From a virus, in IMG/VR virus record IMGVR_UViG_3300010885_020782, positions 62,001 through 126,000 of that record: a DNA stretch of 64,000 nt; one strand, written 5' to 3'. Positions 13,316 through 43,115 of the stretch are shown here, piece by piece; the first letter of the stretch is position 1; every line of letters starts with the position of its first letter. The notes beneath the pieces were generated by a model. That model saw nothing but the letters and a program-made list of their open reading frames with translations, was not told the DNA's origin and did not search any database. The translations under genes were made by a program, and so were the position numbers.

Positions 13316-13356
13316 TTGCAGGAAAAGACAGGTAAAAAGTAAAAACTTGCGAGCGC

Positions 13357-13385
13357 AAAGTTATCCACACCCTGTGGATAACTTT
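13357..13385. promoter_or_regulatory. Inverted pair of perfect DnaA boxes
   Basis: TTATCCACA (13361-13369) and TGTGGATAA (13373-13381) face each other inside a perfect inverted repeat with 13-bp arms and a CCC centre. Both match the DnaA box consensus TTATNCACA exactly. Confidence 0.75.
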
Positions 13386-13418
13386 CACTTCCCAACAACT
13401 TCCGCAGGGGTGCAAATG

Positions 13419-13434
13419 TGTGGTGCAACTCACA
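13419..13434 (+). promoter_or_regulatory. CRP-like site, about -74
   Basis: TGTGG-TGCAAC-TCACA, identical to the site at 12954, centred about 74 bp upstream of the start predicted for the 13547 gene. Confidence 0.6.
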
Positions 13435-13465
13435 CGACATTTTTAATCTTTTTTGCCAAATGTGG

Positions 13466-13494
13466 TTGCGTTACCCGTAGCCAACCCTTATACT
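13466..13494 (+). promoter_or_regulatory. TTGCGT-17-TATACT promoter
   Basis: TTGCGT at 13466 and TATACT at 13489 with a 17-bp spacer, upstream of the 124-residue gene. Confidence 0.7.
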
Positions 13495-13546
13495 TCAGTT
13501 AGTGGAAATCGCAAGGGGCGATGGATACAAAGGGGAGATGATAGAA

Positions 13547-13921
13547 ATGTCTTACGGCTCATTTCACAATCTACTTGCTGGGAACAGTAAGTCCCTTACC
13601 GAAATTGAAATCGGTATGGGCGCAACACAAATCGGCTGGTCTGACCGCTACGCCTACACAGTAGTAGGGTTCGAGCGTTTCAAGACAGGTGCAAAGGCTG
13701 GACAAATAAAGGCAGTAATTGCCACTCGCGACATTGCAAAGCGCACAGACTCAAACGGCTACTACACAGAGAGCCAAGATTACGAGTTCACTACCAATCC
13801 AAACGCTAAGCAAGAACGCTACACACTCCGCAAAGATGGTCGCTTTATGCGTGAAGGCGCAACTAATTCAGGCGTTCTCCTAGTCGGTGTGCGAATGGAA
13901 TACTTCGACCCACACTTCTAA
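13547..13921 (+). CDS. Hypothetical protein, single-gene unit
   Basis: A 124-residue protein starting MSYGSFHNLLAG, rich in beta-strand-like segments. I recognise no family. ATG 13547 is chosen over earlier in-frame ATGs because AAAGGGGAG lies nine bases upstream of it. It has a DnaA box pair, a CRP-like site and a TTGCGT promoter upstream and a terminator at 13935. Confidence 0.7.
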   Translation: MSYGSFHNLLAGNSKSLTEIEIGMGATQIGWSDRYAYTVVGFERFKTGAKAGQIKAVIATRDIAKRTDSNGYYTESQDYEFTTNPNAKQERYTLRKDGRFMREGATNSGVLLVGVRMEYFDPHF

Positions 13922-13934
13922 AGTCGGAAAGGAA

Positions 13935-13963
13935 GCCCCCTCGGAAGAGGGGGTTTCTTTTTT
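13935..13963 (+). terminator. Rho-independent terminator
   Basis: GCCCCCTC-GGAA-GAGGGGG stem-loop followed by TTTCTTTTTT. Confidence 0.85.
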
Positions 13964-14015
13964 GCTGGAAAAATTAAAACTATGTAAAAAGTAAAAACTT
14001 GCGAGCGTCAAAAAA

Positions 14016-14031
14016 TGTGATGCAACTCACA
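14016..14031 (+). promoter_or_regulatory. Perfect CRP-like site, about -75
   Basis: TGTGA-TGCAAC-TCACA matches the CRP-family consensus exactly and is centred about 75 bp upstream of the start predicted for the 14145 gene. Confidence 0.65.
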
Positions 14032-14063
14032 CCAGCACATCTAAACAATTTTCCCAAATGGTC

Positions 14064-14092
14064 TTGCAACTACTCAACTAATTAGATACACT
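14064..14092 (+). promoter_or_regulatory. TTGCAA-17-TACACT promoter
   Basis: TTGCAA at 14064 and TACACT at 14087 with 17-bp spacing, upstream of the 87-residue gene. Confidence 0.65.
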
Positions 14093-14144
14093 TAGACCAA
14101 GAAGCCAAGCCACAGGGGGCAAGGCAACTAACAAAGGGAAGCAA

Positions 14145-14408
14145 ATGTCTAAACTAATCACAGACGCAGAACTAATCGCAGTAATGAACGGCACAAACAA
14201 AGACGGAAAGAAAGTCTTTCTTGCACTTTTTGAGCCACGAAAGAACTCACTTCCACAAATGGACGGACGCTCCGTAACCTTCCACGCAGACACTAAGGCA
14301 GAGGCAGAACGCCTAGCCAAAGAATACGGCAGAAGGATTTTGGATAGACGCTTAGCGTATCTAATGTCTTGCGAGGTTGAGGAAGCCCGCTACGGACTTC
14401 GCTACTAA
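14145..14408 (+). CDS. Hypothetical protein, single-gene unit
   Basis: An 87-residue protein (MSKLITDAELIAVMNGTNKD...) with a central beta region and a helical, arginine-rich C-terminal half (EAERLAKEYGRRILDRRLAY). It is unrecognised. AAAGGGAAGC precedes the ATG. It is an isolated unit with CRP-like site, promoter and terminator. Confidence 0.7.
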   Translation: MSKLITDAELIAVMNGTNKDGKKVFLALFEPRKNSLPQMDGRSVTFHADTKAEAERLAKEYGRRILDRRLAYLMSCEVEEARYGLRY

Positions 14409-14420
14409 AGTTAGCGAGAA

Positions 14421-14450
14421 GCCCCCGAGAAATCGGGGGTTTCTTTTTTT
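14421..14450 (+). terminator. Rho-independent terminator
   Basis: GCCCCCGA-GAAA-TCGGGGG followed by TTTCTTTTTTT. Confidence 0.85.
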
Positions 14451-14555
14451 GCATTTTATTTTTTGATTTTGAGTAAAAAGTAAAAACTTAGTGGCTAGTG
14501 CTCGCAACTTCCAAACAACTTTTAGACACCGCACAGGGGGTGGAGAGAAATGGGC

Positions 14556-14584
14556 TTGCATTGTTGCAACATATCTTGTATGCT
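14556..14584 (+). promoter_or_regulatory. TTGCAT-17-TATGCT promoter
   Basis: TTGCAT at 14556 and TATGCT at 14579 with 17-bp spacing. Unlike its neighbours, it has no CRP-like site that I can see. Confidence 0.65.
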
Positions 14585-14612
14585 ATATCTACCAACTACG
14601 AAAGGAAACAAA

Positions 14613-14906
14613 ATGCAATTCACAATTGACCCGCAACTAGGTTCAGGCACTTCACTCAAAGGTTATGTAACTTCAACACTTGCAGAACTTATTGAAACCT
14701 TCGGAGAGCCCGAATACTTCGCAGAGGGCGACAAAGTAACAGTAGAGTGGTCAATCCTTTTTGATAACGGCACAGTCGCAACAATCTACGACTGGAAGCG
14801 TTACGAGATGGGAAGACCTGCACTCACCGAGGTATTCCAATACAACATTGGCGGACACGACCACGAGGCAGTAACGCTAGTAAAAAAGGCACTCCGCAAG
14901 GGGTAG
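14613..14906 (+). CDS. Hypothetical protein with VTVEW...DNGTVATIYDWKR segment
   Basis: A 97-residue protein. The segment VEWSILFDNGTVATIYDWKR, near residues 49-68, is of a kind I have seen in small phage proteins of unknown function. ATG 14613 follows AAAGGAAACA closely; an upstream in-frame ATG at 14550 lies before the promoter and is rejected. No terminator follows, so transcription may continue into the regulator at 14974. Confidence 0.7.
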   Translation: MQFTIDPQLGSGTSLKGYVTSTLAELIETFGEPEYFAEGDKVTVEWSILFDNGTVATIYDWKRYEMGRPALTEVFQYNIGGHDHEAVTLVKKALRKG

Positions 14907-14915
14907 TCTCCCGAC

Positions 14916-14944
14916 TTGCAATCAGTAATCCTATGGGTTATGCT
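14916..14944 (+). promoter_or_regulatory. TTGCAA-17-TATGCT promoter
   Basis: TTGCAA at 14916 and TATGCT at 14939 with 17-bp spacing, 30 bp before the ATG of the two-HTH regulator. Confidence 0.65.
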
Positions 14945-14973
14945 TGCTATAAGACAAACTACGAAAGGAACAA

Positions 14974-15585
14974 ATGACAACAGAGACAACGAAAAACGCT
15001 ATACCGAAACGAGTTACATATAAAATTGTGGCTAGTGGGGAAGGAAAAATCATCAAGCGAAAGCAAGAACTTCCGCAAGATGTATTAGATATCTTCAAGG
15101 GTATTAGCGACATAAAGCAACGCAACCAATACATAATTGCATTGGGCGAGGCTGGCTGGACGGACTCTTCTATTGCAAGGGCAGTAGATGTTTCACGGGA
15201 ACGAGTAAGGCAACTTGCTCAACAAACAACGAGCGACACTTCTCTCATTGGTGATTTACCAATCCCAAAGCCACCGCGAGAAACAAAGTATTCTAAAGTC
15301 TATCCCGAACTTCCAAAAGAAATGCTTGACAGACTATTAGAACTAAAACCACTTGCCCAACAGGTAAGAGGACACGGCAAGATGTATCGTGCAGAGGCAG
15401 ATGAATACACCTACCTTCTCAATCAAGCAATAACAACTCAAGGCATTTCCGTATATCGTCTTGCAAAGTTATTGGGTGTAACTATTGGTGCAATCCAATT
15501 CCGCTTGACACGATACGGCTACCGAACAACAACAGGAAAAAGTAAGTGCTTCCAACCAATTCTAGAAAAGAACCGCCGTGGCTAA
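14974..15585 (+). CDS. Two-HTH regulator with sigma-region-4-like recognition helix
   Basis: The 203-residue protein has a first HTH at about residues 52-82, YIIALGEAGWTDSSIARAV then VSRERVRQL. The RERVRQ signature is that of the recognition helix in sigma70 region 4.2. A second HTH near residues 155-180 is ISVYRLAKLLGVTIGAIQFR. The closest relative in the window is the 193-residue protein at 56055, with the same order and the same SKCFQPIL/STCYKPIL-type C-terminus. A role in recognising phage promoters is inference. AAAGGAAC precedes the ATG, and the gene overlaps the small zinc ribbon that follows. Confidence 0.75.
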   Translation: MTTETTKNAIPKRVTYKIVASGEGKIIKRKQELPQDVLDIFKGISDIKQRNQYIIALGEAGWTDSSIARAVDVSRERVRQLAQQTTSDTSLIGDLPIPKPPRETKYSKVYPELPKEMLDRLLELKPLAQQVRGHGKMYRAEADEYTYLLNQAITTQGISVYRLAKLLGVTIGAIQFRLTRYGYRTTTGKSKCFQPILEKNRRG

Positions 15586-15697
15586 ACCGCAACAATGTAG
15601 TAAATGTCAGGCGTGGTTCAATCCTAAGTTCGGTGGTGGTGGAGAGGGGTTATGTAAACCCTGCCACTATATTGAAATGAAGAAGGACAAAGAGTAA
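15578..15697 (+). CDS. 39-residue zinc ribbon protein
   Basis: A GTG start overlaps the end of the regulator by eight bases. The product MAKPQQCSKCQAWFNPKF continues with a glycine loop and CKPCHY, giving a CxxC...CxxC zinc ribbon. It is the smallest member of a group of zinc-ribbon proteins common in this window. Confidence 0.6.
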   Translation: MAKPQQCSKCQAWFNPKFGGGGEGLCKPCHYIEMKKDKE

Positions 15698-15847
15698 ATG
15701 AAAGAGTTAGACGACCACGAGTTTCTTGGTGCTTGTCCAAAGTGCCAACAACTTATACAAGGTGCAGAGGTGTATGACCGCGAGCGTGGGTGGATTACAG
15801 TATGGATTCACGCACACTCAAGACGAAGGCTCTGCTTAGTGGCATAA
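15698..15847 (+). CDS. 49-residue CxxC protein
   Basis: The ATG directly follows the preceding TAA. The product has one CPKC motif (residues 13-16) and ends with an arginine-rich segment HSRRRLCLVA. It probably binds zinc. Last gene of the rightward block, followed by a terminator. Confidence 0.6.
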   Translation: MKELDDHEFLGACPKCQQLIQGAEVYDRERGWITVWIHAHSRRRLCLVA

Positions 15848-15848
15848 G

Positions 15849-15882
15849 AAAACCCCCTAGACGAATAATCTAGGGGGATTCT
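15849..15882. terminator. Bidirectional terminator between convergent operons
   Basis: CCCCCTAGA and TCTAGGGGG form a nine-pair stem, flanked by A-rich sequence on the left and T-rich sequence on the right. It can serve both the rightward block and the leftward lysis cassette. Confidence 0.8.
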
Positions 15883-15892
15883 TATTTATAAA

Positions 15893-16186
15893 CTAATCAG
15901 CAGACTTACGCTTATCTACAAGCGAAAAGGCTTCGTTGATTTCAGATGTAGTCAATTTTCCATCAGCAAGGTAGGCACGGGATAGAGCCTCTACAACAGT
16001 AGCGACACCCAAACCACCCGCAAGGGCAATAGATTTCCAAACTTCAATACCAAACAAAGAACCTGCTCCGACCACTGATAGTCCCGAGGCAGCGAAAGTA
16101 GCGATGACGCGACCAATGAGCATTTTTGCTTTCTCAATAGCCTTGTCGTCCCGACTTACTTCAACCTCTCCTTTTGCTTTTGCCAT
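15893..16186 (-). CDS. Putative holin
   Basis: A 97-residue protein with a charged N-terminus and two hydrophobic helices (IGRVIATFAASGLSVVGAG and SIALAGGLGVATVVEAL), then a polar LADGKLTTSEINEAF tail, as in phage holins. It lies directly downstream of a lytic transglycosylase and a PG-binding protein. ATG 16186 is chosen for the GAAGGAC box nine bases upstream. Confidence 0.65.
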   Translation of the reverse strand: MAKAKGEVEVSRDDKAIEKAKMLIGRVIATFAASGLSVVGAGSLFGIEVWKSIALAGGLGVATVVEALSRAYLADGKLTTSEINEAFSLVDKRKSAD

Positions 16187-16289
16187 TTGTGCCGTCCTTC
16201 CTTGTCCTGCACAGAGCGTAAAAAGTAAAAACAACGCTCGGCTAGTCAATTTTAGATGACCAACCGAGCGTTGATTATTGAAAAGGTGT

Positions 16290-16721
16290 TTAGGCTACGA
16301 CTTCTACCGCAGTGTTCTTGAATAACTTAGTAATAAGTTTCTCATCTAGGACGAGTTCTTGGGTAGAACAACCACAAAAGTCAGCAAGGGCTTTTTTAGT
16401 TCCTTCGCTTAGGTGTCCGCGACTATCAGAACCTGCGTCATCAAACCCGAGAACAATAAGTTGTTCTTGAACTAAGGCGACAGACGCAGAGTTGTGAGCA
16501 AACTTGTTTCCAAGCGCAGACAACGAAACAACTCCCGCAGTTGTTGAAACAACAGCAGGGGACTTTTTACTTTTTACTACTGGTTCAGGCTCGACAGCCA
16601 CAGCAAGAACAGGGGCAGGTTCTTCAACCACAGCCACAACCTCTACAACGGCGTCAGAAGCCTTTACTACTTCAGGCTCTACCGCAGGGGTAAAGACACT
16701 ATAAAGGTCTTCATTACTCAT
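16290..16721 (-). CDS. Putative peptidoglycan-binding protein
   Basis: The 143-residue product has a Pro/Val/Glu-rich N-terminal 55 residues and a C-terminal region (SVALVQEQLIVLGF...LSEGTKKALADF) that resembles a PG_binding_1 repeat. One TTTTTAC repeat copy (16563) lies in frame and encodes KSKK at the boundary between linker and domain. It overlaps the lytic transglycosylase gene by eight bases, so both belong to the same lysis cassette. Confidence 0.6.
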   Translation of the reverse strand: MSNEDLYSVFTPAVEPEVVKASDAVVEVVAVVEEPAPVLAVAVEPEPVVKSKKSPAVVSTTAGVVSLSALGNKFAHNSASVALVQEQLIVLGFDDAGSDSRGHLSEGTKKALADFCGCSTQELVLDEKLITKLFKNTAVEVVA

Positions 16722-17968: not shown

Positions 17969-18071
17969 GGGCAATTAGAAAGGAATCAGGAAGAAGTTGT
18001 TGGGAAGTTGTGAAACCTGGCGAGCGCGAGGGCTTGGAGATACGCATAAAAAGTAAAAACTTACCCGCACA

Positions 18072-18248: not shown

Positions 18249-18384
18249 TGGAATCCCCTTTCAATTTGTTAGGCACAATATAACAGTCTTCAGGCAGTAA
18301 AGCAAGGAAGTTGTTTAGAAGTTGCCCGCAGCGAGGCTTGGACTCACGCATAAAAAGTAAAAAGTCCCACGGGAAAAAACGCTA

Positions 18385-18950: not shown

Positions 18951-19153
18951 TTGTTTCCCTTCTTTCCTTTAGGACTTGTGCGTCCTTTAGTTCTAGCAGA
19001 GGGGTTTCTTATTTCAGCCCCACCACCTTGAATTGCTTTGCGAGCGCAACGATAGGACACGGCAAGTTCTCTAGCCACATCATCTATCGAAAGACCACCG
19101 CGATACAAAGAACTTGCGCTGGCTTCTAACTTTTTACTTTTTGCTACTCTCAC
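18947..19153 (-). CDS. Small HTH DNA-binding protein
   Basis: This 68-residue basic protein carries an HTH (GLSIDDVARELAVSYRCARK, residues 20-39) and a lysine/arginine-rich tail. The TTTTTAC repeat at 19130 encodes residues AKSKK near its N-terminus. It sits between the DUF7694-like gene and a membrane-protein gene with ATGA overlaps. Possible local repressor. Confidence 0.65.
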   Translation of the reverse strand: MRVAKSKKLEASASSLYRGGLSIDDVARELAVSYRCARKAIQGGGAEIRNPSARTKGRTSPKGKKGNK

Positions 19154-19635
19154 GCAGACTTGTCCTCTTCATCTTCGTAAGGTCGTTGAACCGCGTTACG
19201 AATTACCGCAGGGTCTAATCCCTTGTCCCTCAGCCATTGAGCAGTCTGTGGGTCTTGTGCGTTGTCTGTAACGTGCCTTCCTTCGTTCCAAGTAAAGAAA
19301 GAAGTTGTTCCTTCAGGTAGAACCCAAAGATGGTATTGGTTAGAGGTATCAACAAGTTGGCTTTCAGGTGGAAAGATTTCTACGGCTTCTCTTTCAGAAC
19401 CTGCAAGTTCGTTCTTGATACGCTGGAAGTGTCGCCAATCTCTAATAGCCTTGCGTTCGTTATGACGAATCGAAAGGTGAAGACCACTGGTTTCTCCAAG
19501 TTCAGGTTCTAAAATTGTCTTGACGACAACATAAAACCTGTTCTTCCAAATTGTTTGATGGGGTTCAAGGTCAATCTTCTTCCCATTTACAGTTGGAGTT
19601 GCTTCCTCGAACTTATCCCAAAGGGGCTTAGTCAT
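19150..19635 (-). CDS. DUF7694-like phage protein
   Basis: The 161-residue protein has the pattern HLSIRHNERKAIRDWRHFQR...SQLVDTSNQYHLWV, which I associate with DUF7694 proteins of actinophages. Function unknown; such genes are common and usually encoded among early genes. It overlaps both neighbours. Confidence 0.7.
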   Translation of the reverse strand: MTKPLWDKFEEATPTVNGKKIDLEPHQTIWKNRFYVVVKTILEPELGETSGLHLSIRHNERKAIRDWRHFQRIKNELAGSEREAVEIFPPESQLVDTSNQYHLWVLPEGTTSFFTWNEGRHVTDNAQDPQTAQWLRDKGLDPAVIRNAVQRPYEDEEDKSA

Positions 19636-19802
19636 TATCCGCGCCTCTTCTTGATAACTCGATAGATTCCATAACCAAGCAGAGCAACAATTAGTGCTGG
19701 GGTATAGACAGATACGCCAAAGAAGTTTGACGAAATTTCAATCCACTCGAACTGGCAAGTGAAACTACAGTTAGCGTCAGAAATTACCTGTGTTGTTTCC
19801 AT
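19635..19802 (-). CDS. 55-residue membrane protein
   Basis: A polar N-terminus (METTQVISDANCSF) is followed by one transmembrane helix (YTPALIVALLGYGIY) and a basic tail (RVIKKRRG). The TTTTTAC repeat touches its start, so that the A-run of the repeat supplies the A of the ATG. Confidence 0.6.
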   Translation of the reverse strand: METTQVISDANCSFTCQFEWIEISSNFFGVSVYTPALIVALLGYGIYRVIKKRRG

Positions 19803-19804
19803 TT

Positions 19805-19957
19805 TTACTTTTTACTCCTTTCGTCTCGTAGAAGTTTCCGCAACCGATAATTCTCTTTTGTGAGATTTCGGTGGGACATTATTGAGATTACCATTACGGC
19901 GCACGAACTGGCGAGCGCAATAGTAATTCCGATTAGCGTTCCTGTATCTAAATACAT
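19805..19957 (-). CDS. 50-residue membrane protein ending in the repeat
   Basis: One N-terminal transmembrane helix (LIGITIALASSCAVMVISI) followed by a basic helix. The stop codon TAA and the last residues RSKK are encoded by the TTTTTAC repeat at 19801, two bases before the next gene's ATG. Confidence 0.6.
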   Translation of the reverse strand: MYLDTGTLIGITIALASSCAVMVISIMSHRNLTKENYRLRKLLRDERSKK

Positions 19958-20855: not shown

Positions 20856-20919
20856 ACAGGGGGTTCGGGGAGAGAGCGTGTCGTTTAGGGGGCACATAGA
20901 AAGTTTTTACTTTTTACTA

Positions 20920-22135: not shown

Positions 22136-22146
22136 CGATTACAACC

Positions 22147-22155
22147 TGTGGATAA
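22147..22155. promoter_or_regulatory. Perfect DnaA box
   Basis: TGTGGATAA is the complement of TTATCCACA and is followed by CTTTTGGAAGTT. Confidence 0.6.
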
Positions 22156-22252
22156 CTTTTGGAAGTTGAGGCGAGGCGGGCACCGGAGCGTGTAAAAAGT
22201 AAAAACTCTCCCCTGAGTCCCCACTTCGCAACAACCTACCCGCGAGCGCAAT

Positions 22253-22777: not shown

Positions 22778-22924
22778 TTGTCCCCCTTTCTTAGGTAACC
22801 GAAGTATAACAACCTATCACGAAGAAAGTCAAGTCAAGACACGAAAGTTATTGTGAAGTGCAGGACCGGCGAGGGCCCGGACTGAACAAAACTTTTTACT
22901 TTTTACTTTCATAGGGAGATGCAA

Positions 22925-22951
22925 AAGCCCCCGCATCTCTGCGAGGGCTTC
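22925..22951 (-). terminator. Rho-independent terminator
   Basis: GCCCTCGC...GCGGGGGC stem followed leftward by TTTTGC. Confidence 0.65.
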
Positions 22952-22962
22952 CGCGTCAACCT

Positions 22963-23103
22963 TTAGAGATACTTCATCGGGTCGGCATCTTCAAAGATAT
23001 CTTCGATATCAGTGAAAGACCAAGTCTCCCAATTTATCTCTTTCATATTGAACTTGATACGGCAGTCTTGGCAGGTATCAAGGTCGCAATTAGAGTGTTG
23101 CAT
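22963..23103 (-). CDS. 46-residue acidic protein with CxxC
   Basis: The product begins MQHSNCDLDTCQDCRIKF and ends in an acidic FTDIEDIFEDADPM segment. The cysteines could bind metal. It is a single-gene unit with TTGACT-17-TATACT (23131-23159) and a terminator. Confidence 0.6.
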   Translation of the reverse strand: MQHSNCDLDTCQDCRIKFNMKEINWETWSFTDIEDIFEDADPMKYL

Positions 23104-23240
23104 ACTTCCCCCTTTCTCTAATGTAGCCTAAGTATAATAGTCGGCTAGAGATAAGTCAAGGGCAGACACGAAAGTTATTATGAAGTCGAATGCACTTGGT
23201 TGCTGTTGCTGAAGAAAGTTTTTACTTTTTACTGTTACCG

Positions 23241-24217: not shown

Positions 24218-24351
24218 TAAAAAGTTCTCGAAAACATTAACATTTATTTTGCTAAGGGTTTTAGCCAATAGGCGTGAGAAAGTTGTTTGGAAGTCCAGCA
24301 CCGCTAGGGGACAGCCCCGCATAGTTTTTACTTTTTACTTTCCTATTGCAA

Positions 24352-24580: not shown

Positions 24581-24721
24581 TGTGTTCCCCCTTTCTGTTG
24601 CCCTAAGTATAACCCTAGAAAGGTTCATAAGTCAAGTCAAGACACGAAAGTTATTGTGAAGTCCAGCACCGCTAGGGGTAAGTCCGCGTATAAGTTTTTA
24701 CTTTTTACTGTTTCACCGCAA

Positions 24722-26166: not shown

Positions 26167-26279
26167 TACCCTAAGTATAACCAAAAGGGGAAGAAAGTCA
26201 AGTCCTCTAGGCACGACACGCCAAAGTTATTTGGAAGTTGCCCTCGCAGCGAACGCCGGCGAGCGCAAGTTTTTACTTT

Positions 26280-26855
26280 TTACTTCTCCCCGTAATACTG
26301 AACATTTATGTAAATCGGTGGGGCAGAGTTCGGGTCAAGTTTGGTGGCAATAGTTAGGGCTTGTCTAACCAAAGTCTTAGCCGTAGATAAAGTTCTTTTA
26401 CGGGTTTCCATAGTTCCAAGTAAAGAACCAAGTGCGTAGGAAGAACCTGTTCCGATAGCGTAGATACCGCTTTCATCTCTAGCCCAAGAGTAGTCGTTGC
26501 CTATCTCATAGATAGTCCCGTTGATTACGACCATCACATTACTGTCGTTATCGCTATCTTTGGAGTAAGAGTTTTCCTCAAAACATTTCTTCATTTCAGG
26601 GATAAAGGAAGCCGTCATAAATTTGTCTAACCTTAGACCATAGGTTGAGGGGCTAATGATGGGCGGTTTGAATATGTAGCAAAGAATATTTATGGCTCTA
26701 ACATCTCCAGCCACGCCAATGATGTAGTTCCCGTTCTTGAACATCTTGCCATTATCTTTTGGAAGTGAGTAAATCTTTTCGTTCTCCTCGGTTACCCGTG
26801 AGTCATATCCAACGACAGCCCAGTTCTCCCCTTGCACGCCAGCAATAGTCGTCAT
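26280..26855 (-). CDS. Proteasome-like (T1-family) Ntn hydrolase
   Basis: The 191-residue protein begins MTTIAGVQGENWAVVGYDSR. After Met removal Thr1 and an Asp at position 17 occupy the places of the proteasome beta-subunit nucleophile and Asp17; a lysine follows near position 36 (NGKMFKNGNYIIGVAGD), and GIYAIGTGSSYALGSLLG matches the family's GSG segment. HslV/proteasome subunits form rings and degrade proteins. The paralogue at 59703 shares all these features. The stop codon TAA lies inside a TTTTTAC repeat. The chamber partner and substrate are unknown. Confidence 0.75.
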   Translation of the reverse strand: MTTIAGVQGENWAVVGYDSRVTEENEKIYSLPKDNGKMFKNGNYIIGVAGDVRAINILCYIFKPPIISPSTYGLRLDKFMTASFIPEMKKCFEENSYSKDSDNDSNVMVVINGTIYEIGNDYSWARDESGIYAIGTGSSYALGSLLGTMETRKRTLSTAKTLVRQALTIATKLDPNSAPPIYINVQYYGEK

Positions 26856-26893
26856 CTTCTTCTCTCCCGTTACCCTTCAGTTTTTACTTTTTA

Positions 26894-27139
26894 CTACTTC
26901 CAGAAGCCGTCCCAGAGTTCTTCTCTAAGTTGTTCATACTTATCGCCGTGATGCCCGTTGTATTTCGCAGAAATATCTTCACCTCTAATGAGATAGTCTA
27001 GCGAAAGAACGGCGGTATAGTCAGTATCGCCAAACATAATAACAAGTTTAGCGTCCCCGTCAGAGGGGTCATCTACAATAGCAACAACGAAAGGCTCGCC
27101 AGAGCCGTTAGCGTGAAAGTCCTTAGCAATAATATCCAT
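26894..27139 (-). CDS. Hypothetical acidic protein
   Basis: An 81-residue protein (MDIIAKDFHANGSGEPFVVA...) with a beta-rich first half and an acidic helical end. Unrecognised. ATG 27139 is chosen; a TTG six bases upstream is possible. Its stop TAG abuts a TTTTTAC repeat. Confidence 0.55.
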   Translation of the reverse strand: MDIIAKDFHANGSGEPFVVAIVDDPSDGDAKLVIMFGDTDYTAVLSLDYLIRGEDISAKYNGHHGDKYEQLREELWDGFWK

Positions 27140-27783: not shown

Positions 27784-27804
27784 GAAGTTTTTACTTTTTA
27801 CTTC
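27784..27804. repeat. TTTTTAC repeat enclosed in an inverted repeat
   Basis: CCGAAGT and ACTTCGG flank the repeat copy at 27787, so here the A/T-rich core is the loop of a seven-pair hairpin. Confidence 0.5.
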
Positions 27805-28387: not shown

Positions 28388-28617
28388 TAGTTATTTAGCC
28401 TACTTATGAACTCGCCAAACTTTTGGTCAAGGTCGTCAGAGGTTGAGCCATCAGGTAAGGTGAAAAACTTTTCACTACCTTGATAAGAGTATGTCCAAGT
28501 GCCTGTCTTCTCGTCCCAAATAGTTCCATCAGGAAACCGCACTTCTTCACTCTCAACATCAACCGACCAATGGTTTAGGTTGTCGTCATACTTCACTACG
28601 AAATGGTGTTCAGCCAT
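28387..28617 (-). CDS. Hypothetical beta-rich protein
   Basis: The 76-residue protein has repeated aromatic strands (HHFVVKYDDNLNHWSVDV; TWTYSYQGSEKFFTLPDG). Unrecognised. First gene of a three-gene unit whose promoter contains a palindrome. Confidence 0.6.
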   Translation of the reverse strand: MAEHHFVVKYDDNLNHWSVDVESEEVRFPDGTIWDEKTGTWTYSYQGSEKFFTLPDGSTSDDLDQKFGEFISRLNN

Positions 28618-28644
28618 TTTATTTCTCCCTTTCTTTCTTTGACT

Positions 28645-28674
28645 TATTATTCCACTACCCTAGTGGAAAGTCAA
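28645..28674 (-). promoter_or_regulatory. Promoter with palindromic spacer
   Basis: TTGACT (28669-28674) is followed by a perfect inverted repeat TTCCACTA-CCC-TAGTGGAA (28650-28668) that fills the spacer up to an AATAAT-type -10. A repressor bound there would block polymerase. Confidence 0.55.
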
Positions 28675-28677
28675 ATC

Positions 28678-29829
28678 CTATTTTGCTAGGACATAAACCT
28701 TGTCTTTCATAACCAAAGGTTTGTCGTCCGGCCCCTTTACATAAGGTGCTATCCAAATCCGCTTCTTAGTATTGTCCTTGTAAGGTTGCCATCTCCAATG
28801 ACCGCCGACTACCCATCTGTGCGACCAATCTATGAAGCGACCATCATCAGACTTTTCTCCACTCTTGTATTCTGTTTTGCGAAGTTGCACAACAACATAC
28901 TCGCTAGGAAGTTTTGCCTTCTCCATAGACTTTCTAATTCCGCGTTGAGGTGTTTTCTTTTCAGTAGATACAATAGTTTGCGACATCATCAAAAAGTATG
29001 CGTGCATAAATCGTGGAAAGTTATCCATACCAACGAAATCGTTTTGATAGTTCTCTTTCCAATAGTCCGCGTCTAACTCAAATTGTTCTTGTCGCTTTTT
29101 TCCGCCGACCTTTTCTCCGTGTCCAGCAGACTCAACGGAAGAGAGCAACCACTTACCAACATTTCTACGGAACTCCGCAACACTCTTTCCTGTTGCCTCT
29201 GCTGTTCTTTCTAGCATAGGCATAGAGTCGTCAGCCATTACATCAAAATTATTGAATAAGTAATAAACAATTTGTCTATCTTGCATTTCCCAAAGAACGG
29301 CGTGGATTATGTATTTGTTTCCTTCTATGTCGTTTGTTTCTACGCCCTTCTCAAAGTAAGCAAAGCCTCTAAGACTAGGGACAAGTTCTAAGTCAAAGGT
29401 ATCTGTTTCATCTAGTTGATTAGAAGCGAACGCAATTACATCTGTCATTTCGCCTTTTACTAAATAAACATCAGCCTCTTCAGTAATCGTAACCATTTCC
29501 TTGACCATAGTTTCGGCAAGGTCAATTTTTGTTTTACCTGTTCTCATAGTCCCTGTTAGAGATAGAGCCTTCTTCTCTGTATCAAAAGTAACCGCAGAAC
29601 CATACTGCGCTACATTGTTTAGGCAGAATAGTTTTTGTCCATAGAAGAACAACGCACCTTTTTTGCCAGCAAGTTCTGTTTTGTATTTAGCAAAAATATC
29701 CCTAACAATTTCATCTTCTTCATCTCTGCACTTTACAGATAGGACATTAGTTAGGACATAACCCGCATTACCTTTTAGGCGCAGGTTTAGGTCGTTGAGT
29801 AGCGTAAGCGTTTCATCAGGTCTAATCAT
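28678..29829 (-). CDS. Hypothetical protein with HRWVVGGHWRWQPY C-terminus
   Basis: The 383-residue protein is unrecognised over its first 300 residues. The C-terminus, HRWVVGGHWRWQPYKDNTKK then IWIAPYVKGPDDKPL, resembles a motif found at the end of uncharacterised actinobacterial plasmid and phage proteins. It is the longest gene between 17 and 33 kb and a single transcription unit with promoter TTGACT-17-TATACT at 29853-29881. Leader has AAAGGGGAAAC before the ATG. Confidence 0.6.
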   Translation of the reverse strand: MIRPDETLTLLNDLNLRLKGNAGYVLTNVLSVKCRDEEDEIVRDIFAKYKTELAGKKGALFFYGQKLFCLNNVAQYGSAVTFDTEKKALSLTGTMRTGKTKIDLAETMVKEMVTITEEADVYLVKGEMTDVIAFASNQLDETDTFDLELVPSLRGFAYFEKGVETNDIEGNKYIIHAVLWEMQDRQIVYYLFNNFDVMADDSMPMLERTAEATGKSVAEFRRNVGKWLLSSVESAGHGEKVGGKKRQEQFELDADYWKENYQNDFVGMDNFPRFMHAYFLMMSQTIVSTEKKTPQRGIRKSMEKAKLPSEYVVVQLRKTEYKSGEKSDDGRFIDWSHRWVVGGHWRWQPYKDNTKKRIWIAPYVKGPDDKPLVMKDKVYVLAK

Positions 29830-29883: not shown

Positions 29884-30336
29884 CTATTCTTCGTCCCACT
29901 CTTCCGAGTCTTCGTCCGAGTTTTCTTCCTTAGACTTATAGACAACTTCCTCAACAGGCATAAAGTCCAATAAGTCTAAGTCCTGCGTCAAGTCAAGAAC
30001 TAGACACTCTTCGCACCTCTTGTAGTCAATAGACCTCTCAAAGTGGCGAAGTTCCTCTATGGAAACATCTAAACCACTCTCCATCTTGGCAAGAATAATT
30101 CTTGTCCGCAAAGCCCTATGCTCTAACATATTTTGAGCATAGACATAATCTTCGTGGCGAATAAGGTCAGAGTCTTTGATTTGCTTTTCCTGTGTCTTGC
30201 AAGTCGGCAACCAAAGTGTGTCTTTATCTATGATTAGTTCGTAACCATCATCAGAAGTTTTAGTTGAGATAGGTTCGTAACTATGTAGAACTTTGCTAGT
30301 TAGTGGGTTGTGCGTGTATTTTCTTTTGTTAGTCAT
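29884..30336 (-). CDS. Hypothetical acidic protein
   Basis: The 150-residue protein starts basic (MTNKRKYTHNPLTSKVLHSY) and ends very acidic (EENSDEDSEEWDEE). One CxxC (RCEEC). Unrecognised. Separated by a repeat-bearing gap from the unit to the right. Confidence 0.55.
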   Translation of the reverse strand: MTNKRKYTHNPLTSKVLHSYEPISTKTSDDGYELIIDKDTLWLPTCKTQEKQIKDSDLIRHEDYVYAQNMLEHRALRTRIILAKMESGLDVSIEELRHFERSIDYKRCEECLVLDLTQDLDLLDFMPVEEVVYKSKEENSDEDSEEWDEE

Positions 30337-30428
30337 AGTGCAACCTTATCAAATAGTTTTTGGTTTTGCAACTTATCTCTCCCCTGCGTGTCGTTTGTGT
30401 TTTTACTTTTTACTATCCCTGTTTTGTA

Positions 30429-30994: not shown

Positions 30995-31205
30995 CCTTTC
31001 CCCACGCTCGGGCTTCTGTGTATGGCTCTGCCACAAAGTCAGCCCCTTTGATTAGGTCATAAGGAAAGTCAGCCTTAGCCCTTGCTTCTCCAATGCGCTC
31101 GGCTTCGGCTTCGGTTTTGGCTTCTACTTCGTAATAAGCATTTGTTGCGGTTTCATCTTCAGAGAAGTATCCACGCACTATCCACTTTTTACTTTTTACT
31201 TTCAA
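30990..31205 (-). CDS. 71-residue protein with repeat-encoded start region
   Basis: TTG at 31205, preceded by GGAG and overlapping the previous stop, is the likely start. The first residues KVKSKK are encoded by the TTTTTAC repeat copy at 31185. The rest (WIVRGYFSEDETATNAYYEV) is a beta strand and helix pattern. An upstream in-frame GTG at 31271 is less likely because it lies inside the preceding gene. Confidence 0.5.
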   Translation of the reverse strand: MKVKSKKWIVRGYFSEDETATNAYYEVEAKTEAEAERIGEARAKADFPYDLIKGADFVAEPYTEARAWGKV

Positions 31206-31363
31206 TCCAGTTTCTCCACTTCTATCTCGGTTGAGCGTGAGAGGTCGTGTCCATACTCGTTCTCCAACCACTCTCTTGCTTGTGTTTCAGCACCCCGTTG
31301 CGTTTCGGAACTCACCTCTGTCCCGAAGTGGGAGATGAAGGTGGCTTTCCAGCGGTTAGTCAT
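31202..31363 (-). CDS. 53-residue hypothetical protein
   Basis: MTNRWKATFISHFGTEVSSE then an acidic helix. It overlaps the next gene upstream and the TTG start downstream. It looks distantly similar in layout to its downstream neighbour (strand, then AEA/ETQ-rich helix). Confidence 0.5.
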   Translation of the reverse strand: MTNRWKATFISHFGTEVSSETQRGAETQAREWLENEYGHDLSRSTEIEVEKLD

Positions 31364-31601
31364 TAGGGCTTGCCGTTTCTGCTAATACCTCGTTCGCTAA
31401 ATCTACGAAGTCTTCGGCAGCAGAACTTTGGAAATACCACTCGCCGTCTTCATACTTGTCGCAGACTTGCTCCCATTGTTCGTCCGTCAAGGTCAAGCCG
31501 TCTGCGTATCCTTCAACACACTCTTTGTCCCAGTATGCAACAAGCAACTCGGTTTCAGGTGCGTATGCCGTTAGTTGTTCTATTAGTTTTTTTACTTGCA
31601 T
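31356..31601 (-). CDS. Member of a small LTDEQW family
   Basis: The 81-residue acidic protein (MQVKKLIEQLTAYAPETELL...) contains LTLTDEQWEQVCDKYE. The same layout, a start helix, an AY-D/E strand and LTDE.W, recurs in the genes at 39361 and 40007. Its start is three bases from a TTTTTAC repeat. Function unknown. Confidence 0.6.
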   Translation of the reverse strand: MQVKKLIEQLTAYAPETELLVAYWDKECVEGYADGLTLTDEQWEQVCDKYEDGEWYFQSSAAEDFVDLANEVLAETASPND

Positions 31602-31626
31602 AGTTTTTACTTTTTACCTTTCTTGG

Positions 31627-32042: not shown

Positions 32043-32570
32043 TTAAAAGTGGAAGTCAATCGGCACTAGGTATTGGCGTGTCGGGTCTTTCTCCACTCGT
32101 TCCCAAAAGAACTCTAGGCTTGCCGAGTGTTCCTTTAGGTCATAAACACCTGTATCAGAACACCAATCATTAGAGAGAAGTCGTCCTAACCGCAGTAAAG
32201 ACCAAGCGTCCATAGTTGAGCCATAGTTATACTTGTTTGGGTTGTAGTCCTCAACAAGTTGTTCTAGGTTGAAGCCTTCTGTTTTTATTTGTTCTAGGTA
32301 TCGCAACATTTCTTTTTTACGATAACTAGCAAAGTCTTTGATAATGTCGTTTGCAAGAACGGGGTTCTCTGTGTATGCAAGAACATCTCTGTTCTCTTCC
32401 CAGCCTTCAAACAATCCTGACCAGCGACCAGCAAGCCCTTCGTCAAGACCCCCGTGCCAATCTGACCACGCAGGGTATGGAGTTTCTGAATAAGTAATAG
32501 TTGTTTTGGCGTAGTCAATAGCGTCCTGTGCGCTATCCGCTTCAATCAACATAATCTGACAAGTGTGCAT
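32043..32570 (-). CDS. Hypothetical aromatic-rich protein
   Basis: A 175-residue protein with many Trp and Tyr (YPAWSDWHGGLDEGLAGRWS). I associate this composition with uncharacterised actinophage proteins but cannot name a family. Its ATG is immediately preceded by the TTTTTAC repeat (AAAAATG), with AAAGGG on the far side of the repeat. Confidence 0.6.
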   Translation of the reverse strand: MHTCQIMLIEADSAQDAIDYAKTTITYSETPYPAWSDWHGGLDEGLAGRWSGLFEGWEENRDVLAYTENPVLANDIIKDFASYRKKEMLRYLEQIKTEGFNLEQLVEDYNPNKYNYGSTMDAWSLLRLGRLLSNDWCSDTGVYDLKEHSASLEFFWERVEKDPTRQYLVPIDFHF

Positions 32571-32625
32571 TTTTACTTTTTACCCTTTCTTTCGTTCTTG
32601 GTTGAGAACTATTATCCCATTTTAT

Positions 32626-33066
32626 TTATGCAAAGTCAAGTAGCAACATCTTTTCATTTTCATACTGTTCCTTCACATAGGAACTCGCACTTTGGAGAGC
32701 CTCTGAAATACTGTCGCATACCCAATCTAAATGCTCTCCGCGACAATACAAGTCAAACCAGTTGTTGTTGTCCCAGTTCAAGGCGTTCTCGCCATTAGCA
32801 AGGCGTAAGTCCTCATCACAATTTATACCTAAGCCATAAAAATCTGACGCAGTTCTAAGGATTGTTTCTGTTGGTTCGTGGATTACACGAACTTCTCCAT
32901 CTGCATAAACATCTACCTCAAACCCTTTATAGGAAACTTGGCAGATAAATCCATCACCTTCATACCAAAGGCTATCGTCTTGTTTTTCTAAGTTGGGAGC
33001 AACTCCAGAAAACATAGAAGCCCAAACAACTTTTGAACCTTCTAATAATTCTTCTACTGTTTTCAC
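32626..33066 (-). CDS. Hypothetical acidic protein
   Basis: The 146-residue protein is acidic with a beta-rich centre (FICQVSYKGFEVDVYADGEV) and helical ends. Unrecognised. AAAGGATAGAAGTG precedes the start. Confidence 0.55.
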   Translation of the reverse strand: MKTVEELLEGSKVVWASMFSGVAPNLEKQDDSLWYEGDGFICQVSYKGFEVDVYADGEVRVIHEPTETILRTASDFYGLGINCDEDLRLANGENALNWDNNNWFDLYCRGEHLDWVCDSISEALQSASSYVKEQYENEKMLLLDFA

Positions 33067-33099
33067 TTCTATCCTTTCGTCATTGGTTTTTACTTTTTA

Positions 33100-33153
33100 C
33101 TAAGTAGTAAGTGAAACCCCACAAAGGGGGTAAGGGGGCTTCACCTACTTAGG
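33100..33153 (-). terminator. Large hairpin after the VWA/MoxR operon
   Basis: CTAAGTAG and GTGAAGCCCC pair with GGGGTTTCAC and CTACTTAG. There is no T-run after the stem, only the A-rich repeat, so termination efficiency is uncertain. Confidence 0.5.
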
Positions 33154-38251: not shown

Positions 38252-38597
38252 AGCACCAGTCTAACGCTTGCCGTTGATTTGTCAAGCCCCGTTGCTGAAG
38301 ACACGCCGACTTCCTAACAACTTCTTTAGCGGGGCTCAGCGCATCTGCTACTTTTTACTTTTTACTCGGTTCGGTATAAGCGCTCGCCGTTTTTACTTTT
38401 TACTCTCCAGGCCCTGGCGGTTGGTGCACTTCCAAATAACTTATACAGCGCTGGCAGCAAATGTTTTCTGGTGCACTTCCGAACAACTTCAAGATGTCAA
38501 GACGGCGGCGGAAATCTTCAGCGGTTAGATAAAAGAAAAAGCGTGCCAACTCCGTGTCTCGCACGAAATTATTGGCACGCCGTTTGTTGCGTTTGAA
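38252..38597. promoter_or_regulatory. Gap with two heptamer repeats and three ACTTCC elements
   Basis: Right to left: a terminator (38531-38580), two near-identical GTGCACTTCCAAATAACTT-type elements at about 38428 and 38474, TTTTTAC repeats at 38389 and 38351, a third ACTTCC...AACTT element with GACACGCCG at 38300-38320, and the promoter of the 50-residue gene. No gene is seen. Confidence 0.6.
38531..38580 (-). terminator. Rho-independent terminator
   Basis: GCGTGCCAA (38541-38549) pairs with TTGGCACGC (38572-38580), with a nested CGTG/CACG, followed leftward by TTTTTCTTTT. Confidence 0.85.
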
Positions 38598-39162: not shown

Positions 39163-39166
39163 CCCT

Positions 39167-40424: not shown

Positions 40425-40512
40425 GGGGAAACCCATCAAACCAAGTCATAATGCTTAGAACTAGAAAGGTAGATGTCTAAGCGACTTTGCGAATTATAAA
40501 GTAACAGCGGTC

Positions 40513-40764
40513 TTAGTCTCCTGTCAAATCGTGTCGTGCTCTAGCAGTCTCTTCCATCTCATCGGTTACTTCTGTAGTCTTCGGAAGATTGATAATCTCA
40601 CCCGTTACAGCATCCACAATTTGTCCATTCACAATCTGGAGTTGAGGTCCCTGGTCAAGATGTCTTCCCAACAACTCATCAACGTCAGCGGTTACTTGTA
40701 TGTATCCCTTTTGCACTTCGCGTTTGAGCAGTGCGTATCCAACCCACGCCGTTATGAGTCCCAT
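40513..40764 (-). CDS. Small membrane-anchored protein after WhiB
   Basis: The 83-residue protein has a short hydrophobic start (MGLITAWVGYALLKREVQKG) and an acidic remainder. It overlaps the WhiB gene by 13 bases and may work with it. Unrecognised. Confidence 0.55.
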   Translation of the reverse strand: MGLITAWVGYALLKREVQKGYIQVTADVDELLGRHLDQGPQLQIVNGQIVDAVTGEIINLPKTTEVTDEMEETARARHDLTGD

Positions 40765-41039
40765 CGGTCCCCTCTCAGCGCTTGCCGTTGTTCAACGGTC
40801 ATGCCTCCCCACACCCCGTATTGCTCGGGGACATTGAGTGCGTGCTCAAGGCACGCCGTTCTCACTGGGCACGCCCCACATACTGCGAGCGCTCTCGATT
40901 CGCGGGCCGCTTTCTCGGGGCCCCGTTGACCGTGTTCGAGAAAAAATATTTCAGTGTCTTCATCTTTACACAGGCCGTGTTCTTGCCATGCATAAAAGTC
41001 AGCGGTTGGTTTAAGTCTTTCGATAATTTTTGTGTCCAT
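40752..41039 (-). CDS. WhiB-family regulator
   Basis: The 95-residue protein has the four invariant cysteines C24, C54, C57 and C63 (CGACPVRTAC) that hold a [4Fe-4S] cluster, and the GVWGG turn (residues 75-79) followed by the basic C-terminal segment. WhiB-like proteins are restricted to actinobacteria and their phages and modulate sigma-region-4-dependent promoters. ATG 41039 is chosen because TACCGT (17 bp from TTGACA) ends eight bases upstream, suggesting a leaderless transcript. Confidence 0.9.
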   Translation of the reverse strand: MDTKIIERLKPTADFYAWQEHGLCKDEDTEIFFLEHGQRGPEKAARESRALAVCGACPVRTACLEHALNVPEQYGVWGGMTVEQRQALRGDRWDS

Positions 41040-41583
41040 GGCAGCAACGGTACAAGCAGCGCTCGTCGTTGTCAAGTGGTGGTGGTGGTGGCGGAGGTTT
41101 CAGTGGCGGCGGGCCGTTTGTCAAAAAGTTATTTGGAAGTTCACTTTCGCATCGGAGATGCGAAAGCAGTCTACTCCCCAGGCAAGCCGTTGTCAAGTTT
41201 TTCTAAGCGTGGCTCAGAAGACGGTTGGCCGCCAGGTAGACATCACAACAACTTATTAATTCACGGTTGGTCCCACAAGTCCCGTTGGTCCGACCGGTCC
41301 TGGTACCAACATCTCAACAACTTAAATTTTCACAGCAGCATCTGGAGCATCGGTTAATACTCAGTCGGACGTCTGGTCCCTCGACATCTCAATAACTCGA
41401 ACGGTTCACCTGGCAGCATCACGGTTCGTTCCATCATGTGGGTTGGTCCCACTCGTCACAATAACTTCAGCGGTTGACTACAGCACTGTCGAGGCAGCGG
41501 TTAAATATATACAGCGTCCCCATCTACCAGGCCGCTCTTCGTCCAGGCCGCCTTTGAGTTTTTACTTTTTACTAGCGGTTGAC
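41040..41583. promoter_or_regulatory. Gene-poor region with three TTGACA boxes and a 5' hairpin
   Basis: No sizeable gene. Leftward promoters: TTGACA-17-TACCGT (41047-41075) at WhiB, and TTGACA-17-TAGACT (41168-41196), whose transcript begins with a perfect ten-pair hairpin CTTTCGCATC-TCC-GATGCGAAAG (41142-41164). A third TTGACA (41119-41124) has no good -10. Four AACAACTT-type elements and many CGGTT pentamers also occur. Confidence 0.6.
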
Positions 41584-41664
41584 TCAACCCAGGAATCTGG
41601 AGAAGTAATAAACAGCAGCGAGCATCACGGTCACGCCGCTTATGAGTTTAATCACATCAAGCAC
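41584..41664 (-). CDS. 26-residue membrane peptide
   Basis: GTG 41664 follows GGAGGA by five bases and encodes MLDVIKLISGVTVMLAAVYY plus FSRFLG, a single hydrophobic helix. The good ribosome binding site supports translation; length makes it uncertain. Confidence 0.45.
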   Translation of the reverse strand: MLDVIKLISGVTVMLAAVYYFSRFLG

Positions 41665-41775
41665 GGTTATCCTCCAAGCCGCTCTGTGTATACGGTTAGA
41701 ACTAAGGGTGTACGAATCTTACGGTTATATGAACGTTACTGCACCGGCGCAGCGGTCAACTTCACAACAACTTCC

Positions 41776-41898
41776 TTACGCGGGCCGCTCTTCAGCGGCA
41801 AGCCGTTCTTCTCTTTTGACTGCACATTGGGGGCACACGGTTAATGACTTGTCATACGCCTCGCCGCACCAGAAGCAATCGGTTAATACGGTTTCCAT
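41776..41898 (-). CDS. 40-residue zinc ribbon protein
   Basis: METVLTDCFWCGEAYDKSLT then VCPQCAVKREER: CxxC...CxxC. AAGGAC precedes the ATG, just downstream of a triple TTTTTAC repeat. Confidence 0.55.
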   Translation of the reverse strand: METVLTDCFWCGEAYDKSLTVCPQCAVKREERLAAEERPA

Positions 41899-41970
41899 CT
41901 TGGGTCCTTACTTTTTACTTTTTACTTTTTACTCTTACGACACGCCGTCGTTTCGATTTGACATCAATAC

Positions 41971-42014
41971 GTTATCTTAGTAGGCTAGGTTCTTGCCAAG
42001 CCTACTTAGATAAC
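41971..42014. repeat. 16-bp inverted repeat with 12-bp loop
   Basis: GTTATCTTAGTAGGCT (41971-41986) and AGCCTACTTAGATAAC (41999-42014) are complementary with one mismatch. It lies just past the terminase-small-like gene pair and has no T-run. Confidence 0.6.
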
Positions 42015-42166
42015 TATTTACTTTTTATATGGTTGAACAGTTCAAGGGCTTCGTTAGCGCGAGCCGTTACGCGGATATGTTCTTCCCTGGTCTTTGACAA
42101 CGGAATATCTTCTTGAAGTCTTTCCGCCAGGCGGGCCGCCAACTCCTCTAAGTTATTTTGTTCCAT
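42014..42166 (-). CDS. 50-residue helical protein
   Basis: MEQNNLEELAARLAERLQED then a helix ending HIKSK. It overlaps the terminase-small-like gene by 14 bases. The C-terminus is encoded by a degenerate copy of the heptamer repeat. Confidence 0.55.
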   Translation of the reverse strand: MEQNNLEELAARLAERLQEDIPLSKTREEHIRVTARANEALELFNHIKSK

Positions 42167-43082
42167 CGGTTGGCTCCTCGCCGTTTAAATTGTTTGAGTC
42201 CTCCATGACCACTTCAGCCTCAATAACTTTTACATCTACAAGGCTGGCCGCTTTCCGTTGGGCAGCATCAGCGAGCCGTTGCAATCTTTCAGCCACGATG
42301 TCTTTGGCGGGCCGAACCTCAAGAACTCCACCTACATCAACTTCCACGCCACCTCTTACACCAGCACGGTCAAGTATCTCGGTTGAGGCTTTAAGGCGGA
42401 CTGGTTCTGACTGAGCGGTATCCATCAACTCTTCAAGAACATCAACGGCTGCGCTCGCAGATTGCTTTAACTTCTGGCGTGCCCACTCGACATCTGCTCC
42501 TGGCCGACGGTTAGTTCGTAGATGGATGCGACACAAGCCGTCATCCTTTGGACGCCCGCTCGACCATAACATACAGCGGATGCCGTCGGTCTTGACAATT
42601 CGGCATCGGTGAGGTAGACTGGAAGGTGCACGGTTTTTACTTTTTACTACCTTGCCGTTTTCCTCGTCAACGAATAGACGGGTTGCACCAAGTACCCAAG
42701 GTGGTGTAACCTTGCAAGCAGCCTCATCTACCAAGAGGTCGAGGCCCGTTAAGAAGTCTGAGTTGTTTTTAGTTGGGTCGGTTAGAAGTGCTCGCTTCTC
42801 GGAAAGGCTTTGGAGGCGACGCTCTTTCAGTGCTTCCTGGGAACGCCCTGCAATCAAACCCGTTGGTCGTCCTAGTTGGTCATAAACTGTGTCCCACTGC
42901 AAGCCCGCGGCGCGAAGCGCTCTGCGGTTATCTGCTGTGTCTTCGACGATGCCGCGTTCGTGCTCAAGGAGTCCGAGGGCTGAGAGGTCGGGTCGGTAAT
43001 CATATGGGGTATCGAGGTCAGGAAGTTTAGAGGTTGGGTCTTCCTCTTCGCGCTCGCCAAATAGGTCAATCTCGGTTGCCAT
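42153..43082 (-). CDS. Putative terminase small subunit
   Basis: The 309-residue protein ends with a helical region, SASAAVDVLEELMDTAQSEP then VRLKASTEILDRAGVRGG, a pattern common in phage terminase small subunits and related DNA-packaging proteins. The centre has CRIVKTDGIRCMLW and CRIHLRTNRR, a possible zinc site. A TTTTTAC repeat (42633) encodes VKSKN in the middle. Inverted repeats flank the gene at 41971 and 43116. An alternative is an unrelated regulatory protein; the large subunit is not in the window. Confidence 0.5.
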   Translation of the reverse strand: MATEIDLFGEREEEDPTSKLPDLDTPYDYRPDLSALGLLEHERGIVEDTADNRRALRAAGLQWDTVYDQLGRPTGLIAGRSQEALKERRLQSLSEKRALLTDPTKNNSDFLTGLDLLVDEAACKVTPPWVLGATRLFVDEENGKVVKSKNRAPSSLPHRCRIVKTDGIRCMLWSSGRPKDDGLCRIHLRTNRRPGADVEWARQKLKQSASAAVDVLEELMDTAQSEPVRLKASTEILDRAGVRGGVEVDVGGVLEVRPAKDIVAERLQRLADAAQRKAASLVDVKVIEAEVVMEDSNNLNGEEPTDGTK

Positions 43083-43115
43083 TAGTTTTTACTTTTTACT
43101 TTCGGTTAAGGACGA

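Follow-up and report, generated by a model that had tools for sequence, protein, structure and literature searches.

What does a short word do that recurs through a single block of a large viral genome? The question is raised by a stretch of 64,000 nucleotides (the window), which covers positions 62,001 to 126,000 of the 127,375-bp virus record IMGVR_UViG_3300010885_020782 (G000) and in which all window coordinates are 1-based. The repeat, TTTTTACTTTTTAC, had been described in a first-pass annotation as a doubled heptamer, TTTTTAC, and was followed here through the window and through related phages; the portal protein (8660–10408) has many relatives among IMG/VR contigs, most of these contigs being fragments, and the gene calls came from a simple caller made for this analysis. 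The repeat was found to be a conserved site that is oriented with transcription, concentrated at stop codons, start codons and terminators, confined to one block and present in genome-specific versions. From this we infer a protein that reads the site, its phage origin and its effect on transcription. In the reading that we favor, to which we give an even chance of being correct, the repeat would be a dispersed, asymmetric site of 13–14 bp, G[T/C/G]AAAAAGTAAAAA, at which a regulator encoded by the phage binds and gates transcription of the accessory block in a stoperator-like manner.

The exact word TTTTTACTTTTTAC has 27 matches in the window, 22 of them reading TTTTTAC on the plus strand, as annotated earlier, and 5 on the minus strand. 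These matches span 13332 to 43086–43099 and fill 26 places, two of them overlapping in a tripled copy (41912–41932). Together with three copies that carry one mismatch (TTTTTAC on the minus strand at 18046 and 18350, and on the plus strand at 19131), they reproduce the earlier count of 29 copies, one tripled, between 13.3 and 43.1 kb. The claimed confinement to this block was likewise borne out, no exact copy being found in the rest of the window or in the remaining 63 kb of the record. A calculation of expected frequency gave 0.00 copies in 100 dinucleotide shuffles and a mean of 0.39 copies (maximum 3, 200 simulations) under an order-5 Markov model trained on the block; the 27 exact matches are thus not a product of chance.

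The doubled heptamer itself was rejected as the unit. The core that is invariant and common to all the relatives is AAAAAGTAAAAA, preceded by a G in most copies, and the site in the relatives is G[T/C/G]AAAAAGTAAAAA. The first two bases are mostly GT in G000, G002 and G003, GT or GC in G005, GC, GG or CC in G008 and G025, and mostly GC in G021, G022 and G057, so that T at position 2 is consistent only in this phage and its nearest relatives; the doubled heptamer is a special case, obtained because position 2 happens to be T. The flanking consensus also differs by genome, with GT..CT in G000, GC..A in G057 and G[CT]..nnTGCA in G005. The word is asymmetric, without dyad symmetry, and the Shine–Dalgarno core AGGAG is absent from the site consensus GNAAAAAGTAAAAA. 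The sites are single copies scattered over 30 kb and not a clustered array at one origin, in agreement with the first-pass view that they form no iteron array; no evidence was found for the role in replication that had also been proposed. A search of Rfam with the site gave no match, and a literature search for the site word found no phage paper containing it among those listed.

The A-rich strand of the word, which reads GTAAAAA and is the strand given for each site below, is the gene strand in a ratio of 46:5 (p = 2e-9; G000, G005, G008 and G021), and the sites stand at gene joints, where they follow terminators, lie on stop codons or abut start codons. The earlier statement that the majority are placed between a terminator and the promoter that follows holds for about 12 sites and fails for the rest, which are found at starts, at stops or inside open reading frames (ORFs). 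The former set includes the sites at 13332–13345 (+; GTAAAAAGTAAAAA) and 13984–13997 (+), both after a terminator and oriented with the genes, and at 14473–14486 (+), after a terminator and about 500 bp upstream of a gene for a protein with two helix-turn-helix (HTH) domains. It also includes the sites at 20904–20917 (−), with a TTGACT/TATACT promoter 49 bp downstream, and at 22893–22906, 23219–23232, 24325–24338 and 24695–24708 (all −), each of which follows a terminator and has a promoter 61, 60, 143 and 60 bp downstream, respectively; the second of these four borders a cassette at 22911–23214. Several sites of this set are placed about 50–70 bp before the −35 element, and the promoters are of the TTGACT/TATACT or the TTGACA/TAGACT style, the former occurring at 18–33 kb of the window and the latter at 35–42 kb. 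A TTGACA/TAGACT promoter lies 67 bp downstream of the site at 38352–38365 (−). DnaA-box-like sequences, TTATCCACA and TGTGGATAA, adjoin sites at 13359–13382 and at 22140–22170, with TGTGGATAA near the site at 22192, and one pair forms an inverted repeat.

Start codons are abutted at four sites of the window. The word at 19802–19815 (−) bridges the stop codon of 19805–19957 (AGT AAA AAG TAA) and the ATG of 19635–19802, coding for the last residues and the stop of one gene while touching the ATG of the next. The site at 31604–31617 (−) lies between the Shine–Dalgarno sequence and the ATG of 31356–31601, that at 32570–32583 (−) abuts the ATG of 32043–32570, and that at 43086–43099 (−) has the ATG of 42153–43082 3 bp on. 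In five genomes, the word had an ORF ATG within −1 to +4 of it in 4–5 cases per genome where about 0.5 would be expected, a significant excess, the counts of start-abutting sites being 5/30, 4/17, 5/19, 4/20 and 4/15. Similarly, the stop codon of a long frame is covered or followed by the word 3–5 times per genome, against 0.6–1.6 expected (five genomes). In the window, the site at 26270–26283 (−) includes the stop codon of 26280–26855 and has a promoter 69 bp downstream, whereas those at 26881–26894 (−), with the start of 26280–26855 25 bp on, at 31186–31199 (−) and at 19131–19144 (−; one mismatch, GCAAAAAGTAAAAA) come after a TAG stop, directly after a TGA stop and directly after the stop of 19150–19635, respectively. 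Two sites lie in ORFs, at 16564–16577 (−) within 16290–16721, where the word is read in frame as VVKSKKS, and at 42634–42647 (−) within 42153–43082. Additionally, the site at 30400–30413 (−) follows a terminator and precedes the start of 29884–30336 by 63 bp, that at 33087–33100 (−) precedes the GTG start of 32626–33066 by 20 bp, that at 41559–41572 (−) is intergenic, and the tripled site at 41912–41932 (−) is ahead of a small minus-strand ORF. The site at 27788–27801 (−) is flanked by an inverted repeat, CCGAAG/CTTCGG, and lies in its loop, the sole clear case in the genome. Both arms of this repeat change together in G003, which prompted the idea of a hairpin with the word in its loop; it was rejected, stems being no commoner than with shuffled flanks.

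A motif search in related phages showed the element to be conserved. Between 15 and 30 copies, nearly all in one block, occur in G000, in G032 and in the near-complete G057 (of the G021 type, with overlapping ends), which has 15 sites. In G002 and G003, mostly 82–97% identical to the window in DNA, the word is intact at nearly every aligned site, including 38352 and 38390–38403 (−), where the core is kept while the flanks differ; only 32570, partly lost in G002 (8 bp missing), and 13984 and 31186, altered by point changes in G003, depart from this. Distant relatives keep the number, block and orientation of the word and not always its places, some of which come and go. The junction before 26280–26855 carries a site in G000, G005, G008, G021 and G022, and the start of 32043–32570 carries one in G000, G003, G005, G021 and G025. 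The core is missing from G015 (160.7 kb), which has GGTAAAAA at gene joints instead; among the orthologues, this word precedes 3 of the 5 whose G000 counterparts have a site but only 1 of the other 17 (p = 0.024), and it stands 25 bp before the G015 orthologue of 32043–32570.

Candidates for the reader of the site were sought among proteins with two HTH domains. Protein A (203 aa; 14974–15585, +) is a candidate regulator inside the site block, and its two HTH domains were recognized from family hits and from an AlphaFold model (mean pLDDT of 84). Its paralogue B (193 aa; 56055–56636, +) is present in the sampled site-bearing relatives in which the B region is covered, and further paralogues are C (11438–11956) and D (start of the record). 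All 17 portal loci carrying A have the site and 9 loci without A, with at least 5 kb on the early side, have none, a co-occurrence that phylogenetic non-independence inflates. A as the sole reader was rejected, since loci of the G021 type (L031, L053, L056, L059, L070 and L079) have sites without A and the near-complete G057 confirms this combination. A different two-HTH-like protein is encoded at 28597–29190 of G015, inside the block of this GGTAAAAA-using relative.

In the favored reading, a predicted phage protein would bind the site and act on RNA polymerase as it proceeds into the following gene of the block, and the bound protein would hold down or gate transcription through some 30 kb of small, early-type genes. 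This reading is preferred because sites that stand before promoters, on stop codons and at starts, that are few inside genes and that point nearly all one way match what would be needed to obstruct RNA polymerase in a polar way, whereas only part of the positions would be explained by any one of the alternatives (a classical operator, a site for an activator, a translation signal or a structural site). The first-pass suggestion of a site for a phage regulator therefore fits best and is partly supported, as the count is not due to chance and the element is conserved, yet none of the two-HTH candidates A–D that were examined passes as the reader. This last result is one of several that weigh on the other side. 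Protein A is absent from G057 despite the 15 sites of that genome, while B, C and D were rejected as readers of a variable word, the same recognition helices being found in phages with other words. The model of A gave no match in the PDB with Foldseek at E ≤ 0.001, and an L5-type repressor fold was not supported for it, no mycobacteriophage or L5-type repressor being among the 50 listed hits of a comparison in which only protein A was modeled. Across lineages, orthologous junctions keep the site only moderately well (p of 0.02–0.5), and the sites cover about 30 of 127 kb, unlike those of L5. Four of the 29 places face opposite to the genes, namely 16218–16231, the one-mismatch sites at 18046–18059 and 18350–18363, both after a terminator, and 22192–22205 (all +). 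At 16218, the T-rich strand of the site doubles as the T-tail of a strong intrinsic terminator (stem 16273–16232); this is the only place where a GC hairpin on the gene strand runs straight into the T-run of a site, the sense strand being mostly the A-rich one elsewhere, which upholds the earlier remark that the repeat is not a terminator. Finally, a lysogenic state needing a repressor is uncertain, because no tyrosine integrase (PF00589) was found and the only recombinase is a small serine recombinase.

The same positions were weighed under other explanations. If the word acted in RNA, akin to start-associated sequences, an A-rich mRNA word near the start would be bound by a protein or an RNA and would control translation. 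The sense orientation and the 4–5 sites per genome that adjoin an ATG agree with this, as does the word at 32570, which lengthens the Shine–Dalgarno–ATG spacing by 8 nt compared with G002. However, only about one-sixth to one-quarter of the sites are at starts, and a role in RNA alone leaves the roughly 12 sites between terminator and promoter uncovered because they are not in the transcript of the downstream gene; with a word that has neither a Shine–Dalgarno core, nor a conserved hairpin, nor an Rfam match, we regard this explanation as unlikely. Recombination between modules, raised in the first-pass annotation, is indeed seen at some sites: the cassette 22911–23214 is missing from G002, where a single site marks the join, and the word at 20904 marks a point where homology begins. 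Cassettes might be swapped at the word by homologous recombination or by an enzyme of the phage, and the word would then persist by keeping the block exchangeable; in cluster O phages, deletions between the repeats have been seen (PMC4351075). A small serine recombinase of about 220 aa (G000 125454–126113; window 63454 to the end) is moreover conserved in all 6 genomes tested, but it is 60–77% identical across phages with different words or no word, and the word has no dyad or paired half-sites of the kind used by serine recombinases. Breakpoints at the word were not counted as function, because repeats at gene joints give them anyway by homologous recombination and aligners stop at shared words; the breakpoints are intergenic in any case, and BLAST extends through any shared 14-mer. 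Words on start or stop codons or inside ORFs would also make poor cassette borders, no tyrosine integrase is present, and the exchanges lend no specific support to such a role, which we hold to be quite improbable. An integron-type cassette site was rejected, there being no excess of stems and no PF00589.

A nucleoid, partition or silencing protein of the phage that organizes the accessory block but does not act directly on the individual genes would account for sites that are numerous, dispersed and limited to the block. Non-polar structuring predicts neither the strict orientation with the genes nor the positions at starts and stops, however, and Lsr2- and H-NS-like proteins are not known to need an invariant 12-mer, which counts against this explanation; its probability is judged to be low. 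A functionless repeat of selfish or mutational origin that gene conversion has spread is compatible with identical copies whose positions turn over between lineages, but not readily with a core that is kept while its flanks diverge, with the strong bias of orientation and position or with a genome-specific consensus, and it is disfavored as very improbable.

The host is probably a freshwater actinobacterium, because the nearest named relatives of the portal protein are those of Actinomycetia phage DSL-LC01, whose genome is itself a lake-metagenome assembly (PMC10611076), and of Microbacterium phages such as Pumpernickel. WhiB genes are consistent with an actinobacterial host. Searches with the portal protein for a host or prophage among GTDB genomes found no relative, and searches of annotated phages with the DNA of the block found no near match. 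The site word is absent from DSL-LC01 and from the early 27 kb of Pumpernickel. At 18–48 kb, DSL-LC01 (OQ999401.1) has its own repeated words, GATTCTAAAGATGTTATA and TGATTCAATTATA, which are promoter-like.

Other dispersed words were found in the window and in more distant phages. The block of the window holds a second element, ACTTCMMAAYAACTT, an AACTT direct repeat with a period of 11, all 11 copies of which lie in this block and occur on both strands (13387, 14507, 17994, 22845, 24280, 24648, 26224, 31789, 38428, 41126 and 41759), often 50–60 bp past the main site and immediately ahead of TTGACTT promoters; the conserved two-HTH proteins of the A/B type might be its readers. More distant phages bearing A/B-like proteins carry other A-rich words, each in one block and in 14–43 copies (L267–L283 and L291–L298), namely AAAAATGAAAAA in G033 and G041, AAAAATACATAA in G038, AAAAACGAATAC in G040 (43 copies), AAAAATAACTA in G045 and AAAAATAAATAC in G049. 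Since their A-rich strand runs against the genes at a nearly fixed distance of about 80–120 bp before starts, these words may be sites linked to promoters and not an instance of the device described here. Both ends of the G049 contig (1–100 and 154100–154192) carry tandem repeats of the AGGTGGGAAGTA type. A broader proposal, possible but doubtful in our estimate, is that in this family of large, uncultured freshwater actinophages the accessory block is run through a dispersed word that lineages have re-coded as a set, AAAAAGTAAAAA in the clade of the window, GGTAAAAA in a relative and AAAAATGAAAAA, AAAAATACATAA, AAAAACGAATAC, AAAAATAACTA and AAAAATAAATAC in others; a rapidly re-targeted regulator, unrelated to known repressors, would read it and set compatibility in co-infection. 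Because the word changes as a set from one lineage to another, the lineages provide a natural experiment, in which the reader should be encoded by the gene whose changes track those of the word.

Several groups of actinophages have dispersed, oriented motifs, and among those compared, both reader and role are known only for the stoperators of cluster A; the word described here comes from a large family of freshwater actinophages for which metagenomes are the main source, and the family offers relatives at various distances. The 18-bp motif of Microbacterium cluster EC (motifs of Microbacterium phages are described in PMC7302621) is likewise asymmetric, located in small intergenic regions and of unknown function, but it has 12 copies, lies 22–30 bp before starts and is unrelated in sequence. 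The 17-bp repeats of cluster O (Corndog; PMC4351075) resemble the present sites in their more than 30 near-identical copies, many of them intergenic, and in the recombination between copies; they are palindromic and without meaningful orientation, whereas the sites here are asymmetric and oriented. The start-associated sequences of cluster K and the similar motif of Microbacterium cluster EF are asymmetric 13-mers in one orientation, limited to non-structural genes, and some copies abut an ATG or cover stop codons, as here. Virtually all cluster K copies, however, are placed 3–7 bp before a start and contain AGGAG (PMC3203893), while only 4–5 of 15–30 copies stand at starts in the phages studied here and lack the Shine–Dalgarno core; the first-pass comparison with these sequences thus holds for the sites that abut an ATG, and stoperators match better overall. 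The stoperators of cluster A (L5, Bxb1 and TipsytheTRex) are found throughout the genome and not in a single 30-kb block, are unrelated in sequence and serve a cognate two-domain repressor of the L5/TipsytheTRex family, whose binding blocks elongation with polarity and to which protein A gave no match; the phages studied here measure about 120–160 kb and are of uncertain lifestyle. The stoperators are nevertheless asymmetric 13-mers, present in 20–30 copies per genome, oriented with transcription and with a genome-specific consensus (PMC9283540, PMC6550527), and the likeness extends to a length of 13–14 bp, to the copy number, to short gene joints, often on start or stop codons, and to both the orientation and the genome-specific consensus. 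If the stoperator-like reading is true, control by the blocking of transcription would extend to large phages without an evident integrase.

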